From Pseudobythopirellula maris (lineage in GTDB: Bacteria; Planctomycetota; Planctomycetia; Pirellulales; Lacipirellulaceae), in NCBI RefSeq assembly GCF_007859945.1, contig NZ_SJPQ01000002.1, positions 322,588 to 386,587 on the forward strand: a stretch of 64,000 bases of DNA, written 5' to 3'. Below the pieces are notes generated by a model. The model saw nothing but the letters and a program-made list of their open reading frames with translations, did not search any database and was not told the DNA's origin. Both the position numbers and the translations under genes were made by a program. Position 1 is the stretch's first letter. The number at the start of each line of letters is the position of its first letter. Positions 4,228-38,450 of this stretch are shown here, in pieces.

Positions 4228-4863
4228 ATGTCGACGATTGCCCGTGGCCGCTCATTGGCGGCGACCGCATGCACGCTCTTGCTTCTGGTGGGCGGCCCCG
4301 TCCTCGCACAGACGCCCGGCGAGACCCCGGACCCCGCAGCAACCGCGCCCGGCGTGGGCGAGCAAGCCGAACGGACGCTCCAGAGCGCCCGCGACACGGC
4401 GGGCGCGGCGCTCCGCGCGGTCGACGGCGACCCCCGGGCGCAGGAGCTGACCGCCGGTCTGCTACAGCCGATCTACGCCGTGGCCGAGTCGTTCGCCTTC
4501 CCCACGTTCTACTGGCTCGCCTTCGCGGCGATGGCGGCCGGCGTGGTGAGCTTCGTGCTGCAGTTGACGCTCGGCAAACTGGTGGTGATGAGCCGCATGG
4601 GCTTTAGCCCCGCAGAGATCGTCAGCGACTTGGTGGGCCTGGTCGTGAGCCTCGTGGGGCTGGTGCTAGCCACCCAGGCGGCGGTGGAGAACTCTAGCTT
4701 CACCCAAAGCCCGGCCGCGGTGCTCAGCTCAGCGGGAGTGGGCACCGTGATCGGCCTGTTTCTCTACGTGTGGGGCCAGCGTCAGGAGCTCGACGCCGCC
4801 CGTGGCCGCACCGCCTCGGCGAAGACCTCCGGCAAGCAAGCAAAGCTCGCTTCGGCCGAATAG
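4228..4863 (+). CDS. Hypothetical membrane protein with signal peptide
   Basis: A 211-residue protein of unknown family. It has a signal peptide (about 1-27, ending PVLAQ), a short periplasmic helix-rich segment (25-85), then three hydrophobic segments (about 95-120, 135-155, 170-185) and a basic, lysine-rich cytoplasmic tail. AGGTGG six bases before the ATG is a good ribosome site and fixes the start at 4228. It is monocistronic as far as can be seen. Likely an inner-membrane protein; no catalytic motif was found. Confidence 0.65.
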   Translation: MSTIARGRSLAATACTLLLLVGGPVLAQTPGETPDPAATAPGVGEQAERTLQSARDTAGAALRAVDGDPRAQELTAGLLQPIYAVAESFAFPTFYWLAFAAMAAGVVSFVLQLTLGKLVVMSRMGFSPAEIVSDLVGLVVSLVGLVLATQAAVENSSFTQSPAAVLSSAGVGTVIGLFLYVWGQRQELDAARGRTASAKTSGKQAKLASAE

Positions 4864-29619: not shown

Positions 29620-30798
29620 CTAATTGATGCCCGACTGGTCGGTCGTCTCGGGCGATTCGATCCCGTTGGGGCCGGCCGCCGTGCCGTTGCGGGTTCCTAA
29701 GGCGTTGAGCACGTGCAGATCGATCTCGTAGTTGATCGTGTGCACCGAGCCATCGGCAAACACCGCGTTGAACCCACCGGTGTGGGCCGACCCGAGGTTG
29801 AACACCCAGAACGGGGGCTGCACTCCGAACTCACCCGTTAGATCGCCGTAGAGCTGCCCGTCGGGCAGCGCCGGGATGCAGGTGCATCGCGCCACGTCGG
29901 GGTCCCAGCCATCGGTCCAGCCGTTGTCGTCCGACGACGAGTCCTCGCCACGGTACCAGTCGGAGCGGATGTACTTCTCGGCGATCAGGGCGGTCTTCGA
30001 CGTGCCGTCGGTGATCTGCGCAAAGCGGACGGGATCGGGAGCGTTGACTCGTTCGGTTCGCAACCCGAAGCGACTCTTGGTCAGAATGGCGAAGTTGGAC
30101 CGCACGATGACACCGTCGTAAACGCCGTCGGGTTTCACCGAGTTATCAGGCTCCGCCACGGTGTGGCTGCCGCCATCGGCCGTCGGACGCGTTCGCGAGT
30201 AACCCTTCAGGGCGTCGGTTCCCGTGATGAAGTACGGGTGGATCGCGGTCCACCCCGTATTCTGATCCACAGTCGTCACGTCGAACTGATCACTGTCTTC
30301 TGTCGAGTCGGTCCTTGTGCAGGGGTGGGTGCTGGCGTAATCCGTCAGGACGACGCCGGTTTGCGGGTTGCGTGTCACGCCGCGTCGCGAGGGACAAATG
30401 TAGAGCGGTATGACCAGGTCGCGCATCTGGTCACCGGTCGTGACGTCGTGAACCGCTCCCTCCTCCAAGAACGGCAGAATTTGGTAGCCCCACCCTAGGC
30501 CGATCTTTCCGTGGCCCAAGATGTTGCCGTCGACCTCGTAGTCCTCGATGTAGGCGCCGTAAACCTCGCCGCCGGTGGGGAACGCGCTGTTGGTGCTCTC
30601 GTAATTGAGGCACGAGAGGCCAACGTTCTTGAGATTGTTCTTGCACTGCAGTCGACGAGCCGCCTCACGCGCCGACTGCACCGCAGGCAGCAGCAAGGCG
30701 ACCAAGATGCCGATGATCGCGATCACCACCAGCAGTTCAACAAGGGTGAAGCCTGTCGCGTCTCGCGATTGAGGCCTGCGGTTTGAGCGGCTGGTCAT
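29620..30798 (-). CDS. DUF1559 prepilin-like protein
   Basis: A 392-residue protein with the type IV prepilin-like N-terminus [20 protein letters not shown], the expected cut after glycine, and the DUF1559 continuation [20 protein letters not shown]. The extracytoplasmic domain ends with the conserved [14 protein letters not shown]. The family is very abundant in planctomycetes; its role is unknown, probably a pseudopilin-like surface structure. AGGACAGGA before the ATG at 30798 is the ribosome site. It precedes a strong terminator, and an operator-like half-palindrome lies 84 bases upstream. Confidence 0.92.
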
Positions 30799-30881
30799 TT
30801 TCCTGTCCTTTACTCCGTGGGAAGGAATCGGCGCCTGGGGGCGAAGAGAGTTCATGTTTTGAAAAGGGTTGGCGGCGGCTG

Positions 30882-30895: not shown

Positions 30896-31065
30896 CCAAA
30901 TGGGGTGAGTCGTGAACGGGTTACATTCTGTTAGTGCGACGAGCCGCCACGAACCGCTGCGAGCGAGGCACGCGCCTCACTCGCTCGACAGCTCCCGCCT
31001 GCCGGCGTCATGCCGGCCAGCGGGTCGTCCCGCCACTCGGTTCGCTTTTGGCTCCAGCCAGCGAA

Positions 31066-34000
31066 TCAGCCCCGACGACGACCGACGAGACCGAGCCCCG
31101 CCAGAGCCATAAGCAAGACGCCCGAAGGCTCGGGAACCGTGCCGCCGGGACCAGTCAAGTCGGTCCGGTTGTTGCGCCAGATGCGGTAGTCGGCGATCCC
31201 GACCCGGCCGTCGGAGCCTTGGGAGCCGTCCGCCCTGGCCACGTCACCAAGCAGCGACGAGCCAACCTGGGTGTTGTAATTCGCGGCGATGATGTTGTAG
31301 TCGGCCATGTCGACGAAGCCATCGTTGTTCACGTCGCCCGGCAAAGGGAAATCGACAACGGCGTCGATCCAAGTGTCGGCGACACGCAACTCATCGAACA
31401 TCAGTCCGACGCCGCCGTGACCGCCAAAGTTGGCGAGCGCGATCCTCTCGAGCGTGAAGTTCCCACCCGAGGTCGAGGCGCTCGGCAACTCGGGCTCGAG
31501 CGCTGTGGTGGGGTCGAGGTAGATCGACACCGAGTCCATGTTTTCCTCAGCGCTGAGAACGAACTTGGCGACGATCAAGTGATTGGCCCCGTCGTCGTCG
31601 TACGAAGCCGGAGCGTTGTTGAAGATCTGGTAGCCACCAAACGTCGTGTAGAGCCGCGCGGTCTCCGGGTCTTGCTGAAGGGCCCCACCGTTCGGGTCCC
31701 ACTGGTTGTATTGGATACGCCCGATCTGGCCCTCTTCACCCGGCGGGTTGCCCGGCGAATAAAACTCGATGCCGCGGTACCCCATATCGCTGCCGTCCAC
31801 TCGCGCGCCGAAGTTGCTGATCCAGCTGATGTAGAAAGTCCCCTCGGTCGAGGCGGTCCACGGCTCGGCGAGGGCGCGAGCGACTCGCGCTTCGGGGTCG
31901 AGCGGGTCGCCCGATGCGACCACGCTGAGCGCCCCGCCTAGCGCAGGCGATCCGAGGTAATCCAAGCCGCTTTCGACCGGTTGGATATTAATAAGTGTTG
32001 AGGTCTGAGCGTGCCACGGGCCGGCGAAGAACTCGGTATCGACTGTGGGGTTCTGCGTGTCGACCGTTACGCCGGTGGTGTATTGCCCCGCCGCGGCGTT
32101 ACCGCCGACTTCAAACGGATCGTAGAAGAGCAACTCCGCTTGAGCGGGAGACGCCGCCGACAAGAGACCCACCATGGCCACAGCGCCCAACGCGGCGCAA
32201 CGCGTCTTGGCGGCGCGACTGCGGCCGACAAACGCCAAGCCCATCAGCCCGCCCACCGCCAGCAGCAGCGAAGCGGGCTCGGGGACCGTGCCCCCCTCGG
32301 CGCCGCTCTGACTGTTGGACGCCGCGTACAGGTTCTTGAACGCGCGGAAGTCGTTGAGATTCACGATGCCGTCTCCGGTGATCTCGCCCATCGCCGAGTA
32401 GGGCGTGCTGAGCTGTTGGCTGTTGTTTACAATCGTGTAGTCGGCGGTGTCGACGGCGCCATCGCCGTTGAAGTCGCCCGGCGCCACGCCCATGATCTCG
32501 AGAACTACGTTGTCGATGCCGGCCCAGCTGTTGGTCACCAGCGGGTTGAACTCGACGCTGGTCACGTCGAACTCAACACCGAGCGGCCGGCCGAGAGCCG
32601 GGGTGAGCAGGCTGGATCCGCCAACGATGTCGATCGAGTACTCGTTGAACTCGCTGGGGAGGTTCGATATCACCAGGTCGTCGATCGTCGTGCGGGTCGT
32701 GTTGTCCGCCTCGAGGTAGTAGAGCCGCGCCTCGAGTTGCGTCTGGTTGTCCTCGAATTCCCCGTCGACGATCTCGAAGATCGTGTGGGCGTCGAAGCTC
32801 AAACGGTACTGCTGTGTGGCGGGTATGCTCGTGGCGTTGAAGGCCGAGGTCTGGTAGGCGATGCCGTCGAGCGTCGAGAGGATCATCTCGTTGCCGGGGT
32901 TGCCGGCGCCCTCGGTGCCTGAATCTCCCAGTTGATTCTCGTGGCCGTAGTTCTCGACACCGGGGCCGGGGAAGGTCCAACCGGGTATGGCGTCGTTCGG
33001 CGTGCCGTCTTCGTTGAAAGCGATCGTCTTCTCGCCCGCGGGACCGGGGAGTTCAAAATCGCCGTTCGTCAGTGAGATGCCTTGCGTCACCGCCAGTGCG
33101 GACGGGGCGACCAGGCAGAGCAGGCCGGCCCCCAACACGCCGAGGACTCGTCGCTTGAGCGCGCCGGCCATCTGAATCGCTCCTTCCGTGTGGGTGGATT
33201 TGACCGAGCCGCCGGCGATCGCCGGGGCCGTTTCGCGACGACGCGAACCAAGACCGCTCAGCAGCAAAGCCACGGAGCCGCTCATCAGCACCATCAGGGC
33301 GCCCGGCTCGGGCACGGCGGCTGACGAGCTCGCCCCGGCGGTCGGGTCGAAGAAGATCGAACCGACACGGAACGAGGTCTCGGGCAGCAGCCCGCCCTGC
33401 TGACCGAACTGCGACACCCAGTAGTCGTAGTCCTCTTGGTCCACAACGCCCGGGGTGACGGCGTCCGGGTTCTCGTTGGTCAGTGCGATGGAAGTGTCGA
33501 GGTTGTCACGCCACACCGTAAAGTCGGCCGCGTCGACCACCCCGTTGCCGTTGTAGTCGCCGCCGACTTCGGTCGACTCGAGGCCGACCGACAGGATGAA
33601 CTCCATGCCGAGGCCATCGAGCTGCGCGTCGGTCAGGAAGCCGGTCGCCGAGATGTCGCCGATCGAAACCTCTTCGCCCGGGGAGAGCGACATCTCCGTG
33701 CCCAGCGCGGTTTGCGAAAGCGTATCGGACGTGGTCGGCGAGCTCGTGGCCCAGCCGGCGCCCAGCCCCGTGAAGCCGGAGCCGTCGAGATCGCCCGTCT
33801 CCGAGGTGATCGCGAAGCCGTCGAACGTGAGTTCGATCAACGAGTCGTTCTTGAGGAACGCCTCGCCGGTGTTCGGATTCACGCGGAGCACGAGGTTGTT
33901 CTCGAACTTCGGCGTGCCGCCGGTGTAGATCACGTCGCCAAGAGTCGGGCTCGAATCGAAGGGGCCCGCGTAGAAGAACGTGAGGTCCTCTCCGTCGGTC

Positions 34001-35322
34001 CCGAAATTAGCCAAGTCCAAGCCGACCGCGGTTTTGTCGAAACCGTCGCCAAGCCCGAGAGAAGCGGCGGACAGGTCGAGGGACGAACCGTTGCTGAGCG
34101 GGTCGTCGATGACCTCCGAGAGGGCGTTGGCGGACAAGCCGAGCTTGACCCAGTTGGTCGTGGGCGAGGGGGTCATGCCCGACACGCCGTCGTACGTCGA
34201 CTTGAGCGACCCGAGGCCCGATCCGATGGTGTAGCTGTCGATCTCGATCTCGCCGCCCAAGGGGTTGGTGATCGTCAGCTCGCCGGTGTCGCGGTTCACC
34301 TCGAGGACGAGCTTGGCGGCGTACTCGAGTTGCACCAAGGCGCCCGAATCGCTGACGGTCTTCTTCACGCGGTACGAACCGCCCGCGGGGATCGGGTTCG
34401 TCAAACCGGAGACCTCGACCGCATCGCCGCCGCCGAGGTTGTTGAATTCGCCTATGACTGCAATCGGCGATTCAACCAGGTCCCAGGTCTGTCCGACGGT
34501 GTGCGTTGTGGTCGCCGCTGCGCCGCTGAAATCGACGTCGAGCGAGCCGTCCAGGAAGATCGGGGCGCCCGAAGTGATCGCGGAGTGAGCCGTGGGGCTG
34601 GTGATCACCGCGTTGTAGCTCGACGAAGAGCCCATGGTGATCGATCCGACGGCGTGGAACGTGGCGTCGGGGCCTTCGATACGCAGCCGCCGGTCGAGCG
34701 TAGCCGTGTTGGCGCTCGGCTCGCTGTTCTTATCGATGACCAGGCTCGCGGAACCGCTGAGATCGACGAGGCTGTTGCCGAGCGAGTCGCCCGAGAACTC
34801 CTCTCCGCCAACGATGAGAGCCGTTCCGGTCAGAGCTCCGCCGGTCATCGTAACGAAACCACGGCCATCAGCGCCGACCACAATCCGGCCATCGGCGCCC
34901 AGATCGTCTTGGATCGTGGTGACGTTGTTGAGCGTGCCGCCCGTGATCGTCAATGCGCCGACCAGTGAGCCGGCGGCCGGCTCTGATTCCTCATTGAACT
35001 GGAGCCCCAGGTAAAGACCGCCCACGTCCTGTTTCGCACCGGGCAACGCGCCGGAGATCACCGGCGAGCCGAACGGGGCGTCGTTCGAGTTGGCGTAGCT
35101 GTCCGCCTGCTCCGTGCCAATGATCGCCCGCAGGTAAAAGTCCGAAGCCTGGGGAACAAACGGCACGTTGAAAGCCGGGACCAACCAGTTGTTATCGTTG
35201 TTCCAATCGCCGCTCGTGTCGCCTTGCCAAACCGTGTCGTCCGCCACAACATCGGCCTGCGGGGCCAGCGTGGCGGCTAGCCCACACGCCATCATCAGTG
35301 CGATGCGAATCCTTGAGGACAT
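31066..35322 (-). CDS. Triple PEP-CTERM fusion protein
   Basis: One uninterrupted 1418-residue frame holds three complete PEP-CTERM proteins. Module 1 (about 1-700): signal peptide, beta-rich repeats (GGTLNNVTTIQDD, TGGALTGTALIVGG), dockerin-like GDYNGNGVVDAADFTVW, sorting signal AAVPEPGALMVLMSG with RRR. Module 2 (718-1037): a second signal peptide starting at an internal ATG (33171), NGDFELPG sandwich, dockerin-like repeat, sorting signal GTVPEPASLLLAVGG. Module 3 (about 1037-1418): signal-like AALGAVAMVGLLSAASPAQA, a domain like that at 35691, dockerin-like repeat, sorting signal GTVPEPSGVLLMALAG. Start at 35322 opens the first signal peptide. It may be translated as one chain or as two from the internal ribosome site. 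Confidence 0.8.
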   Translation of the reverse strand: MSSRIRIALMMACGLAATLAPQADVVADDTVWQGDTSGDWNNDNNWLVPAFNVPFVPQASDFYLRAIIGTEQADSYANSNDAPFGSPVISGALPGAKQDVGGLYLGLQFNEESEPAAGSLVGALTITGGTLNNVTTIQDDLGADGRIVVGADGRGFVTMTGGALTGTALIVGGEEFSGDSLGNSLVDLSGSASLVIDKNSEPSANTATLDRRLRIEGPDATFHAVGSITMGSSSSYNAVITSPTAHSAITSGAPIFLDGSLDVDFSGAAATTTHTVGQTWDLVESPIAVIGEFNNLGGGDAVEVSGLTNPIPAGGSYRVKKTVSDSGALVQLEYAAKLVLEVNRDTGELTITNPLGGEIEIDSYTIGSGLGSLKSTYDGVSGMTPSPTTNWVKLGLSANALSEVIDDPLSNGSSLDLSAASLGLGDGFDKTAVGLDLANFGTDGEDLTFFYAGPFDSSPTLGDVIYTGGTPKFENNLVLRVNPNTGEAFLKNDSLIELTFDGFAITSETGDLDGSGFTGLGAGWATSSPTTSDTLSQTALGTEMSLSPGEEVSIGDISATGFLTDAQLDGLGMEFILSVGLESTEVGGDYNGNGVVDAADFTVWRDNLDTSIALTNENPDAVTPGVVDQEDYDYWVSQFGQQGGLLPETSFRVGSIFFDPTAGASSSAAVPEPGALMVLMSGSVALLLSGLGSRRRETAPAIAGGSVKSTHTEGAIQMAGALKRRVLGVLGAGLLCLVAPSALAVTQGISLTNGDFELPGPAGEKTIAFNEDGTPNDAIPGWTFPGPGVENYGHENQLGDSGTEGAGNPGNEMILSTLDGIAYQTSAFNATSIPATQQYRLSFDAHTIFEIVDGEFEDNQTQLEARLYYLEADNTTRTTIDDLVISNLPSEFNEYSIDIVGGSSLLTPALGRPLGVEFDVTSVEFNPLVTNSWAGIDNVVLEIMGVAPGDFNGDGAVDTADYTIVNNSQQLSTPYSAMGEITGDGIVNLNDFRAFKNLYAASNSQSGAEGGTVPEPASLLLAVGGLMGLAFVGRSRAAKTRCAALGAVAMVGLLSAASPAQAELLFYDPFEVGGNAAAGQYTTGVTVDTQNPTVDTEFFAGPWHAQTSTLINIQPVESGLDYLGSPALGGALSVVASGDPLDPEARVARALAEPWTASTEGTFYISWISNFGARVDGSDMGYRGIEFYSPGNPPGEEGQIGRIQYNQWDPNGGALQQDPETARLYTTFGGYQIFNNAPASYDDDGANHLIVAKFVLSAEENMDSVSIYLDPTTALEPELPSASTSGGNFTLERIALANFGGHGGVGLMFDELRVADTWIDAVVDFPLPGDVNNDGFVDMADYNIIAANYNTQVGSSLLGDVARADGSQGSDGRVGIADYRIWRNNRTDLTGPGGTVPEPSGVLLMALAGLGLVGRRRG
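33180..33185 (-). promoter_or_regulatory. Internal ribosome binding site before PEP-CTERM module 2
   Basis: AAGGAG on the minus strand, eight bases before the in-frame ATG at 33171 (codon 718). That ATG opens a full signal peptide (MAGALKRRVLGVLGAGLL), so this is probably a functional start of what was once a separate gene. Confidence 0.65.
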
Positions 35323-35690
35323 GTCTTCGTTCCAGAAAGAAAAGTTGTCGGTGTGAGCCATTTATGGCGTGAAACAGATGAGTCAATGCCGCTGGTGTTT
35401 GCCTCGGGCCACGGCAGCACGAGCGTGCATTGCCGTCGCCCTGGGATTGCCCTGCAAGTAGCGATGAAGGGTCGCTCGAAAAGCTGCTGATTTGTTCTTC
35501 GGCTGTCGATTGCGGGCTCGGCCTGACGGGCGATCGGCCGACGGCGACAATCGGTCGCGCGCAAACCTCTATCGCTCGGCCGGGCCGGGCGTTCGCGTTG
35601 TCTGAGGACTCCCTCCGGCGGCCCCCGGAACACAGGGGGCCGCCGGCGAAGGAGTCTGTCGCACTCAAATCCAGCACTCTCGCTGCGCGA
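35323..35690. other. Intergenic spacer with strong hairpin
   Basis: About 370 bases. A 12-base hairpin lies at 35615-35646; the rest has no gene and no confident promoter for the triple PEP-CTERM gene. Confidence 0.5.
35615..35646 (-). terminator. Hairpin after PEP-CTERM gene (terminator-like)
   Basis: Perfect 12-base stem CCGGCGGCCCCC / GGGGGCCGCCGG with an eight-base loop, 45 bases past the stop of the gene at 35691. No T-tract follows, so termination is only probable. Confidence 0.45.
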
Positions 35691-36713
35691 TCAAGCGCTG
35701 CGACGTCGGGCGAACAAGCCAGCACCGACCAAGCCGATCAGGGCCAGGCTGCTGGGCTCGGGAACCCAGTAGTGGGCGACCGTGTTGTTCTGCGCGTCGG
35801 CCCAGGTATCGGCCACACGCAGCTCATCGAACATAGGCGCCTCGCCGGGTCCGAAAATGAACGCCGAGAAGGTGCCGAGGCTCGTCATCAGGTACTTATC
35901 AACCGCGATCTGGGCGTCCGGCGTGTTGTCGCCTTCGTCCCCCACCGGGTTGAGGTACAGCGACACCACGTCTTGGCCGCTGGTCGTCATATCGAACTTC
36001 AGCATTGCGAACTGCGTGACGCCCTCGATCTCGGTCCACGCGGTGTGGTGCGGCAGAGCGACTTCCGTGAAGTTGCCGCTGTCGGCGTCTTTCACCTTCA
36101 AAGCCAGCTGCTGCCCGCCGCCGATGCCCGAGAACTCGCTGATGCCGAATTCAAGCGTCTTGTTGCCGTCGTCCGGGGCGCCGTTCCACCACTCGATCAC
36201 GCGGTGATGCAGGGTCGGTCCCGTGCCGAAGTTGGCAAGGAAGCTCATGTAGTAAACGCCATTGGGATCGGTGAACCCGCCCCACGGAGTATCCATGCTC
36301 ACGCCGTTGCGAGAGGTGTTGCAGCAGCTGTCCTCGACACTCGGGTCGTCGCCCACCGATCCGCCCACCGAGGGGGTGATTTGTCCCACACCGCCCTGCT
36401 TGGTGGTGCGATGCAGAGAATTCGTCCGCACCCAGGCGTCGTCCCCTTGGACCCAAGGGCCGGTGAGGAACGTCCCGGCGCCGCCGGTTTGGCCGCCCAG
36501 CAGGTCATTCACGACGGTCGTCTCGACCGGGGGATCGACATTGTTGTCGATGGTGGTTGTGGTCGTGGTAGGCGTGTAATCGCCACCCTCGGTGTCGAGG
36601 CTGAAACCGTCATACCAAAGCAGCGTGGCGTGGGCCGACTGGCCCGCGAGAATAGCCAAGCAGAACGCGGCTGCGGCGCAAAACACGCCAAGCCGTCTGT
36701 AGGAACTGATCAT
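35691..36713 (-). CDS. PEP-CTERM protein
   Basis: A 340-residue exported protein with signal peptide (about 1-29), a beta-sandwich body that starts LLWYDGFSLDTEGGDYT and contains APMFDELRVADTW, then the sorting signal YWVPEPSSLALIGLVGAG with ARRRSA. The opening motif and FDELRVADTW are shared with module 3 of the triple fusion at 31066, so the two are paralogues. GGAGG eleven bases before the ATG is a ribosome site. Function is unknown; the domain resembles concanavalin-like lectin folds. Confidence 0.85.
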   Translation of the reverse strand: MISSYRRLGVFCAAAAFCLAILAGQSAHATLLWYDGFSLDTEGGDYTPTTTTTTIDNNVDPPVETTVVNDLLGGQTGGAGTFLTGPWVQGDDAWVRTNSLHRTTKQGGVGQITPSVGGSVGDDPSVEDSCCNTSRNGVSMDTPWGGFTDPNGVYYMSFLANFGTGPTLHHRVIEWWNGAPDDGNKTLEFGISEFSGIGGGQQLALKVKDADSGNFTEVALPHHTAWTEIEGVTQFAMLKFDMTTSGQDVVSLYLNPVGDEGDNTPDAQIAVDKYLMTSLGTFSAFIFGPGEAPMFDELRVADTWADAQNNTVAHYWVPEPSSLALIGLVGAGLFARRRSA

Positions 36714-36984: not shown

Positions 36985-38274
36985 TTAGCTCTGAATCGCG
37001 TCGGAATTAGCGTCGGAATTAGCGTCGTGCGAGTGCGGAGTGACAGCGCCGGTCTGGGGCGCCTGCCCGGCGGTTGTGGCGTCGGCCTGATCAGCCCCTC
37101 CGCCACGGCGCCTATCAGCCCGCTTATCAGCCTGCTCGGAACGCTGGCTGGTTGGGTGCTGGGCGTCGACACGTGTGGTTGCGCCTTTGGCCGAAGCGGC
37201 GGGCCTCTCGGCAGTTGGCGCCGCAACGGCCGACGACGCGGCGCGGGCCGCGCTCGTCGAGCCACGCACCACGAGCTTCGGCTTGACCGTCATCACACTC
37301 GCCGCTTTGTCGCTGGCGGTTGCCTCGGCCGGGGAATCGGACTTCGATTCGGACTTCGATTCAATCTCCTGGAGCACGAGTTTGGCGCCCCACTCGCCAA
37401 TCTTGGCGGCGTCGAAGCCAACCACGGTCAGCGGCGGCGTCATGTAACGCGTCGAAAAGAGATCGTTGAAGCCGATCAGGCTCACGTCGCCCGGCACGCT
37501 CAGCCCGTATTGCCAGAGCGAGTGCGCCAGCAGCGTCGCCTCCAGGTCGCTGTAGCAAAGCACCGCGGTGGGGCGCTCGTCGCCGAGCACCAGGGCGTCG
37601 ACCGCCTCCCCCTCGGGCGTTTGCACGTGCTCACGCACCGGCAGCTCCGCTTCCTCCATCGCCGTGCGATAGCCGCGGAGCCGCTCTTGGATACTGCTGT
37701 GAGGCTTGACCGACTCGTGGATGAAGCAAGAGATCCGCCGGTGCCCCAGGCCAAGGAAGTGCTTGGTCGCGGCGTAGGCGCCGGCGAAGTCGTCGACCAC
37801 CACCTGCGAGAGGTCGGGGTCCGAGTTGTCGCCGAGCATTACGATCGGCAGATTGCGCTCGCGAACGGCGTCGGCAACGGCTGTCGGCATCGGCTGGAAG
37901 ACCACGCCGCCATCGATCTGTCCGCCTAGAACGATGTCTTCCCATGCCCCGCGGCTGTCGATCGGCGTGAACACCAGATGGTACCCTTCGCCCTGGAGCG
38001 CACGGACCAAACTGTTCACCACGTGGGTGTTCACACCCTCGAAGATCCAACGATCGTCGGTGTAGAGCAACCCGATGCCGTAGGTCCGGCCGCGCGAAAA
38101 GGCTCGCGCCCGAGCGTTCGCCCGGTAGCCCATCTCTTGGGCGATCTTCTGGATCCGCTCGGCGGTCTCGATGCTGCGACGGCTCGCGCCGTTAGCGTCG
38201 CCGCGGAGGATGCGGGCGACGGTCGAACTCGACACGCCGGCGCGTTCAGCAATTTGGTAAATCGTGACCGACAC
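36985..38274 (-). CDS. LacI-family transcriptional regulator
   Basis: A LacI/GalR regulator of about 429 residues. The N-terminal helix-turn-helix is TIYQIAERAGVSSSTVARIL (about 4-23); the sugar-binding periplasmic-protein fold runs to about 340. The C-terminus carries an extra, alanine- and proline-rich, charged tail of about 90 residues (SKSESKSDSPAEATASDK onward), unusual for the family. The GTG at 38274 gives the normal N-terminus; TTG at 38277 is possible. Three operator-like palindromes lie upstream, suggesting autoregulation and control of the PEP-CTERM/DUF1559 genes around it. The ligand is unknown. Confidence 0.9.
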   Translation of the reverse strand: MSVTIYQIAERAGVSSSTVARILRGDANGASRRSIETAERIQKIAQEMGYRANARARAFSRGRTYGIGLLYTDDRWIFEGVNTHVVNSLVRALQGEGYHLVFTPIDSRGAWEDIVLGGQIDGGVVFQPMPTAVADAVRERNLPIVMLGDNSDPDLSQVVVDDFAGAYAATKHFLGLGHRRISCFIHESVKPHSSIQERLRGYRTAMEEAELPVREHVQTPEGEAVDALVLGDERPTAVLCYSDLEATLLAHSLWQYGLSVPGDVSLIGFNDLFSTRYMTPPLTVVGFDAAKIGEWGAKLVLQEIESKSESKSDSPAEATASDKAASVMTVKPKLVVRGSTSAARAASSAVAAPTAERPAASAKGATTRVDAQHPTSQRSEQADKRADRRRGGGADQADATTAGQAPQTGAVTPHSHDANSDANSDAIQS

Positions 38275-38450
38275 CAAGCAGACCCGCAGAGAAGGAAACC
38301 TGGAGAGCCCAACCTACGCCGACGGGAGTCGGCCTGAGTCGGAATTCGATAAACGCTGTTCAACCGCTGCACGGCACGGCTTAGCCGCCAGGAGCCATCC
38401 CAAGCGACAAACAAGCCACCCCACCAGTGAAAGAGCCCCCCAGAGGGATA

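Follow-up and report, generated by a model that had tools for sequence, protein, structure and literature searches.

The three-unit gene

The window analysed here, a stretch of 64 000 nucleotides from Pseudobythopirellula maris, carries on its minus strand a single open reading frame of 1431 codons (31066–35361) that is made up of three units, each with a signal peptide, a body and a PEP-CTERM tail. Within each unit, a beta-rich body comes after the signal peptide and a dockerin-like repeat precedes the PEP-CTERM tail, and this order is run through three times in the one frame. An earlier note on this DNA had described three such sets without an intervening stop codon and had counted two of the three tails as internal. 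Both points are borne out, the former by the open frame, the PEP sites, Pfam and the three-unit orthologues described below, and the latter by the distances of tails 1 and 2 from the protein C-terminus (748 and 405 residues, respectively), only tail 3 being terminal. The length given at that time, 1418 residues, holds if translation begins at the second ATG (35322), an alternative start, whereas the full open frame has 1431 codons from 35361.

The PEP sites of the protein lie at residues 684–686, 1027–1029 and 1410–1412, and behind each of them come a hydrophobic stretch and basic residues. The earlier description of the tail as ending in RRR fits tail 1, but tail 2 ends in RSRAAKTR. Tails 1 and 2 are each continued by another hydrophobic stretch, with AxA at its end (ALA at residues 755–757 and AQA at residues 1073–1075). 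The putative N-terminal signal peptides of the units were read from the sequence as hydrophobic stretches with AxA. Pfam finds two dockerin I stretches and two PEP-CTERM stretches in the protein, and within the frame PF07589 matched only tails 2 and 3 at genome level. Tail 1 falls below the Pfam threshold and is assigned from its anatomy and from the orthologues. The units fit the PEP-CTERM definition; the open frame as a whole is not an ordinary member.

Unit 1 (33316–35322, minus strand, as for all parts of the gene) comprises a signal peptide (MSSRIRIALMMACGL...) and a beta-rich body as far as the tail, and is homologous to parts of shorter frames of ∼600–700 residues in relatives. Junction 1 (33091–33315, residues 683–757) runs from VPEP, with the PEP motif at 33304–33312, through a helix, RRR and a 21-residue linker to an in-frame ATG (33169–33171, residue 731), where unit 2 opens with a second signal peptide ending in ALA. 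A Shine-Dalgarno-like AAGGAG (33180–33185) lies 8 nucleotides ahead of this ATG. The body of unit 2 (32287–33090) includes a dockerin-like stretch (PF00404, residues 961–1010). Junction 2 (32137–32286, residues 1026–1075; VPEPASLLLAVGGLMGLAFVGRSRAAKTRCAALGAVAMVGLLSAASPAQA) is composed of VPEP, a helix, a basic loop with RSRAAKTR, a helix and AQA, and has no ATG, GTG or TTG from the basic cluster to the second hydrophobic core. Unit 3 (31066–32136) consists of a body, a dockerin-like repeat and the true terminal PEP-CTERM (PEP at 31126–31134). Since a start codon is absent at junction 2 and an ATG with a Shine-Dalgarno sequence is present at junction 1, translation of unit 3 appears to depend on read-through from unit 2, and junction 1 may serve dual expression, units 2 and 3 being also startable on their own. 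An AlphaFold2 model of units 2 and 3, built from three sequences, had a mean predicted local distance difference test score (pLDDT) of 38.5 and was not used.

Orthologues of the fused gene

Near full-length, stop-free matches to the window gene were found in genomes G015 (1482 codons) and G002 (1610 codons), and a match to unit 1 lies inside a 1407-codon frame of G006. Aligned to the window gene, these are 56, 49 and 32% identical, respectively, with three units in each. Separate genes at the orthologous locus, together with proteomic evidence for three products, had been named in the earlier note as a refutation; three orthologues were found and all are fused. A scan of public genome contigs with the window protein gave nothing that was confirmed. 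It is clear that the fused frame is neither an error nor an isolated accident.

Fused frames in other genomes

Further frames with internal junctions are present in P. maris itself (L009, with three units, L010 and L019). A model built from eight tight junctions (those with at most 15 residues from basic cluster to signal core) was searched over 43 genomes of the family Lacipirellulaceae and matched over its full length in many long open frames; all 40 regions chosen from these matches proved on reading to hold at least one internal junction. A second model, from 47 junctions, was searched over 246 genomes of the order Pirellulales. Internal junctions are held by 19 of 20 regions chosen from its matches, which come from seven families besides that of the window, and the remaining region (L143) has no internal junction by the filter used. 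The 40 and 20 regions were hand-chosen from the model matches, mainly as full-length, stop-free and in long frames, and are no measure of frequency.

The longest chains come from genome G068: one frame of 2531 codons, in whose first unit the contig ends, has ten PEP sites, and another of 2298 codons has eight. Seven PEP sites occur in one frame of G086 and four in one frame of G091. Genome G068, from which loci L124, L125 and L147–L151 come, has 86 PF07589 matches in 31 frames, so that most of the tails found there, at least 55, are internal. Beyond the order, fused frames were read in two genomes of the phylum Planctomycetota (G322 and G404). The tally for the order, 119 of 246 genomes at E ≤ 1e-7, takes in mere terminal tails and is not a polyprotein count, and the same applies to that for the phylum, 8 of 392 at E ≤ 1e-8 with P. 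maris, G322 and G404 included. Because 28 (order) and 17 (phylum) candidates were scored per genome, the spread obtained is a lower bound. The fused architecture is certain and conserved, and is found in many genomes.

Anatomy of the junctions

The standard junction consists of PEP, a helix, an arginine cluster, a second helix and AxA, i.e. an exosortase tail merging into a new signal peptide. We parsed 153 distinct internal junctions from 38 genome labels, in frames of up to ten units. One of these is the PEP-CTERM to prepilin fusion described below, and one L142 junction with no clear second helix was omitted. Public accessions are among the 38 labels, and JALHQZ and JANQOF may duplicate another genome in the set. 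PEP matches judged false were set aside (L120, short frames of L140 and L142, the plus strand of L151, L201, L217 and L223). A motif [AVS]xA was present in the interval searched at 144 of the 152 non-pilin junctions.

Tight junctions as defined above number 132, and the remaining 20 were classed as long. No ATG, GTG or TTG lies between the basic cluster and the signal core in 110 of the tight junctions, and ATG with a Shine-Dalgarno sequence occurs in one; among the long junctions, 5 have no start-type codon and 8 have ATG with a Shine-Dalgarno sequence. With start-type codons at 5.3% of all codons in these frames and a mean length of 7.3 codons for the tight loop, ∼67% of tight junctions are expected by chance to be without a start, against the 83% observed. 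Starts at tight junctions are thus not being kept. The count covers the interval from basic cluster to signal core, and starts upstream of it, inside the first helix, fall outside.

A second fused family

A second putative polyprotein of three units is represented by L102, L088, L107, L108 and L080, together with L009 of P. maris. The five other members are 46–76% identical to L102 over the whole length, and PEP and AxA are present at all 12 junctions. As a test less bound to the PEP motif, public genomes were scanned with motifs from the bodies of this family (DPDEWDD- and NDWWW-like). Among the best 80 matches, a list that favours fused copies, are six near-full-length records (L152–L157), all fused at both junctions. 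Two of them are rows of the query, L152 from G033 and L154 from the chromosome of Lacipirellula limnantheis I41 (NZ_CP036339.1); the other four are new and include Aeoliella straminimaris ICT_H6.2. Of the other matches, L158 is truncated at the end of its contig, L159–L162 are two-unit frames, and L163–L230 matched through a shared domain; no convincing internal junction was read among these. This domain, present in units 1 and 2 of the family, has relatives in Verrucomicrobia, Phycisphaerae and others, mostly of the Planctomycetes–Verrucomicrobia–Chlamydiae (PVC) group, and few of the L163–L230 loci have PEP-CTERM tails.

The alignment of the L102 family was also searched across the family Lacipirellulaceae, at E ≤ 1e-40 and with 14 candidates scored per genome; the inclusion of the junctions in the alignment, the E-value limit and the candidate cap each tilt this search towards fused copies. 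Among the matches listed, 60 rows cover the last unit and 53 of these lie in frames of at least 900 codons. Twenty loci were chosen from the long-frame rows (1278–1806 codons), so that their fusion is given by the choice and the PEP count is the result: PEP is kept ahead of the last unit in 19 of the 20, read by eye (9 of 9 by an automatic check). The exception, L241, would be a natural test of the PEP requirement. ATG with a Shine-Dalgarno sequence was seen at 6 of the 36 junctions of these loci. In G012 and G018, some unit matches are in short neighbouring frames; separate genes exist too.

Selection and origin of the chains

Junction identity is lower than body identity in all nine pairs compared. 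In the pair L088/L102 the bodies are 78% and the junctions 55% identical, and the ratio of non-synonymous to synonymous substitution rates (dN/dS) is 0.13 for bodies and 0.42 for junctions; for the window pair (L020/L021) the ratios are 0.37 and 0.56. Junction dN/dS is finite in six of the nine pairs (0.06–0.56); dS is saturated in three of nine junction comparisons, and for L089/L098 only one of the two junctions could be aligned. Faster change of the junctions, with PEP, the basic cluster and AxA kept, is the pattern that would be expected of cleaved sorting signals.

The units of some chains are alike, namely six of the seven units of L132 (45–87%) and three of the four units of L133 (52–60%), and this similarity points to in-frame tandem duplication as a way in which chains are built. 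L124 and L125 are mixtures of mostly unlike units. In G013 (L235, L236 and L238), a Shine-Dalgarno sequence and ATG lie within the upstream tail's basic linker. Junctions with ATG and a Shine-Dalgarno sequence, such as window junction 1 and several in G013, look like intermediates, in which neighbouring genes would have lost the stop ahead of the start codon.

A fusion of another kind was seen in P. maris at L015 (∼4474–4700; C1:314467–314685), where a PEP-CTERM tail runs in frame into the type IV prepilin signal of a DUF1559-like protein, with no start codon seen on the way from one to the other. L015 was tried as the representative of a second fusion class and rejected, the sole other match in the 43 family genomes at E ≤ 1e-16 being a plain prepilin.

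Gene neighbourhood

Gene order around the fused gene is partly conserved. Upstream on the same strand lie a stand-alone PEP-CTERM protein (35691–36713), which is homologous to unit 3 and has a homologue just upstream of the fused gene in G015 and G002, and a LacI-family regulator (36985–38277), which is syntenic in G002; no LacI homologue was found in the stretches of G015 and G006 that were read. Downstream, also on the minus strand, is a DUF1559 prepilin-like protein (29620–30855; PF07596, PF07963), a homologue of which follows the fused gene in G015, G002 and G006. Long antisense open frames lie opposite the fused gene on the plus strand (30934–31941, 33436–34968 and others) and are likely by-products of a guanine- and cytosine-rich composition.

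Proposed processing and alternative explanations

The product of the window gene is probably a polyprotein from which three PEP-CTERM surface proteins are released by two cuts at each junction. Body 1 would be exported by signal peptide 1, and the helix of tail 1 would then stop transfer, with its basic residues left in the cytoplasm. The following hydrophobic segment with AxA would restart export as an internal signal peptide, and these steps would be repeated down the chain. On the outer face of the membrane, every PEP would be a cleavage site for exosortase and every AxA one for signal peptidase I; three separately anchored proteins would be freed, and a transmembrane hairpin, of ∼50 residues at junction 2, would be lost from each junction. 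Established are the fused frame, its conservation, the anatomy of the junctions, the lack of a start at junction 2 as at the majority of junctions parsed elsewhere, and the exosortase genes, PF09721 being matched at three loci of the P. maris genome (best E 2.8e-60). Translation through the junctions, the topology, both cuts and the anchoring we infer from the sequence. One precursor cut into three surface proteins, in the manner of a polyprotein, had been suggested in the earlier note as one of two outcomes; it is the best-supported reading, and the architecture extends far beyond this locus.

A number of observations weigh against processing of this kind. Both the cuts and the read-through are deduced from genome sequence. 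The motif [AVS]xA was absent from the interval searched at 8 of the 152 junctions, five of which are the near-identical LYA junctions of L132, and the otherwise intact 1418-codon frame of L241 has VPEG instead of VPEP in its internal tail. The last unit of the L102 family is also found outside long chains, 6 of the 60 rows being in frames of less than 600 codons and one between 600 and 900. The junction dN/dS values rest on few sites, as well as being finite in only six of nine pairs. Where counted, most tails outside G068 are terminal: P. maris has 82 PF07589 matches and three frames with two, and L. limnantheis (G027) has 108 and one such frame, with 150 of 319 candidates scored. The share of internal tails varies widely among genomes. 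Lastly, the start signal of junction 1 recurs, with ATG and GGAG or AGGAG at equal spacing, in the orthologues from G015 and G002 (L021 and L022).

This recurrent signal would be accounted for if the three proteins were made separately by internal ribosome starts on one stop-less message, the open frame being incidental, and ATG with a Shine-Dalgarno sequence at 8 of 20 long junctions and at 6 of 36 junctions of the fused L102-family loci would fit as well. We consider separate starts unlikely, however, as no start codon lies between basic cluster and signal core at window junction 2 or at the great majority of tight junctions, which are without one more often than chance predicts and have an ATG with a Shine-Dalgarno sequence in a single case. 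A permanent multi-pass membrane protein, in which three exported domains remain linked by hairpins that are never cut, has about the same low probability. The helix–arginine–helix hairpins would anchor such a protein stably; but an uncut hairpin requires neither PEP nor AxA, and both are kept though the rest of the junction outpaces the bodies. Homologues of unit 1 in shorter frames also speak against a protein that is permanently joined.

Neutral fusions, arising by stop loss or in-frame duplication and tolerated with no function as a precursor, would be consistent with the likeness of the L132 units, which implies growth by tandem duplication, with the minority position of polyproteins in P. 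maris and L. limnantheis, and with the related units in short separate frames. They are nevertheless very improbable as an explanation, given that fusions of ∼1400 residues persist across genera at 46–76% identity to the query with PEP and AxA at every junction, and that junction dN/dS is below 1 in each pair where it is finite. Loss of stop codons through sequencing or assembly error is refuted for practical purposes. The P. maris genome is a six-contig assembly, but orthologues in independent genomes are fused and the L. limnantheis I41 chromosome shows the same architecture. Moreover, all three forward frames are free of stop codons from the RRR of tail 1 as far as the internal ATG, so genes once divided by a stop in this interval could not have been joined by an indel within it. 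Processing of a three-protein precursor at PEP and AxA is thus preferred to these alternatives.

Relation to known systems

The polyprotein is a strategy of viruses that bacteria rarely use. The FbcH precursor of Bradyrhizobium cytochrome b/c1 is a bacterial case in which cleavage at an internal signal peptide yields two proteins; unlike the products of the window gene, these are two subunits of one complex, and the precursor has one junction and no known sorting tag.

The substrates of the PEP-CTERM/exosortase system, as outlined by Haft et al. (2006, PMC1569441), have a signal peptide, PEP, a helix and a basic cluster, like the window units, and P. maris has exosortases. Ordinary members have one C-terminal tail, whereas in the window protein two of three are internal and enter a new signal peptide. 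The closest precedent is an internal MYXO-CTERM in the protein MXAN_5598 (PMC11980579), likewise a sorting tag inside one open frame for which processing is proposed. It differs in its tag and protease and in its downstream part, an outer-membrane barrel with OmpA-type domains in place of a repeated signal–body–tag unit; that paper's passages on it call it a rare case ascribed to gene fusion, describe no chain of units, and state, citing others, that C-terminal sorting tags work mid-protein. The phlebovirus Gn/Gc precursor (PMC5113920) offers a working parallel to the chains in that a second membrane protein, Gc, is released, most likely through signal peptidase, at a signal peptide within the precursor; it is viral and based in the endoplasmic reticulum, and its upstream protein ends without a sortase-like cut.

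A literature search found PEP-CTERM and polyprotein, with or without exosortase, joined nowhere, although most subscription journals lay outside its scope and an earlier mention is possible. A phrase search for internal PEP-CTERM tails gave only unrelated papers. In the 2006 founding paper (PMC1569441), the word 'internal' is absent and the passages with 'fused', 'fusion' and 'tandem' are unrelated to such tails.

Implications

It seems rather likely that Planctomycetes, above all Pirellulales, link up to ten export units per gene through a standard excisable hairpin, a so far undescribed arrangement that would take in most PEP-CTERM proteins of at least one species and would fix the stoichiometry of the products and couple their export through a single initiation event. 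In several planctomycete families, members seem to chain their surface proteins in this way, and the junction would need two proteases acting on the same membrane face. Exosortase cleavage would become directly testable, as release of the next protein depends on a cut at the internal tag. If such open frames are read as single PEP-CTERM proteins, the proteins of these organisms would be miscounted and misassigned.

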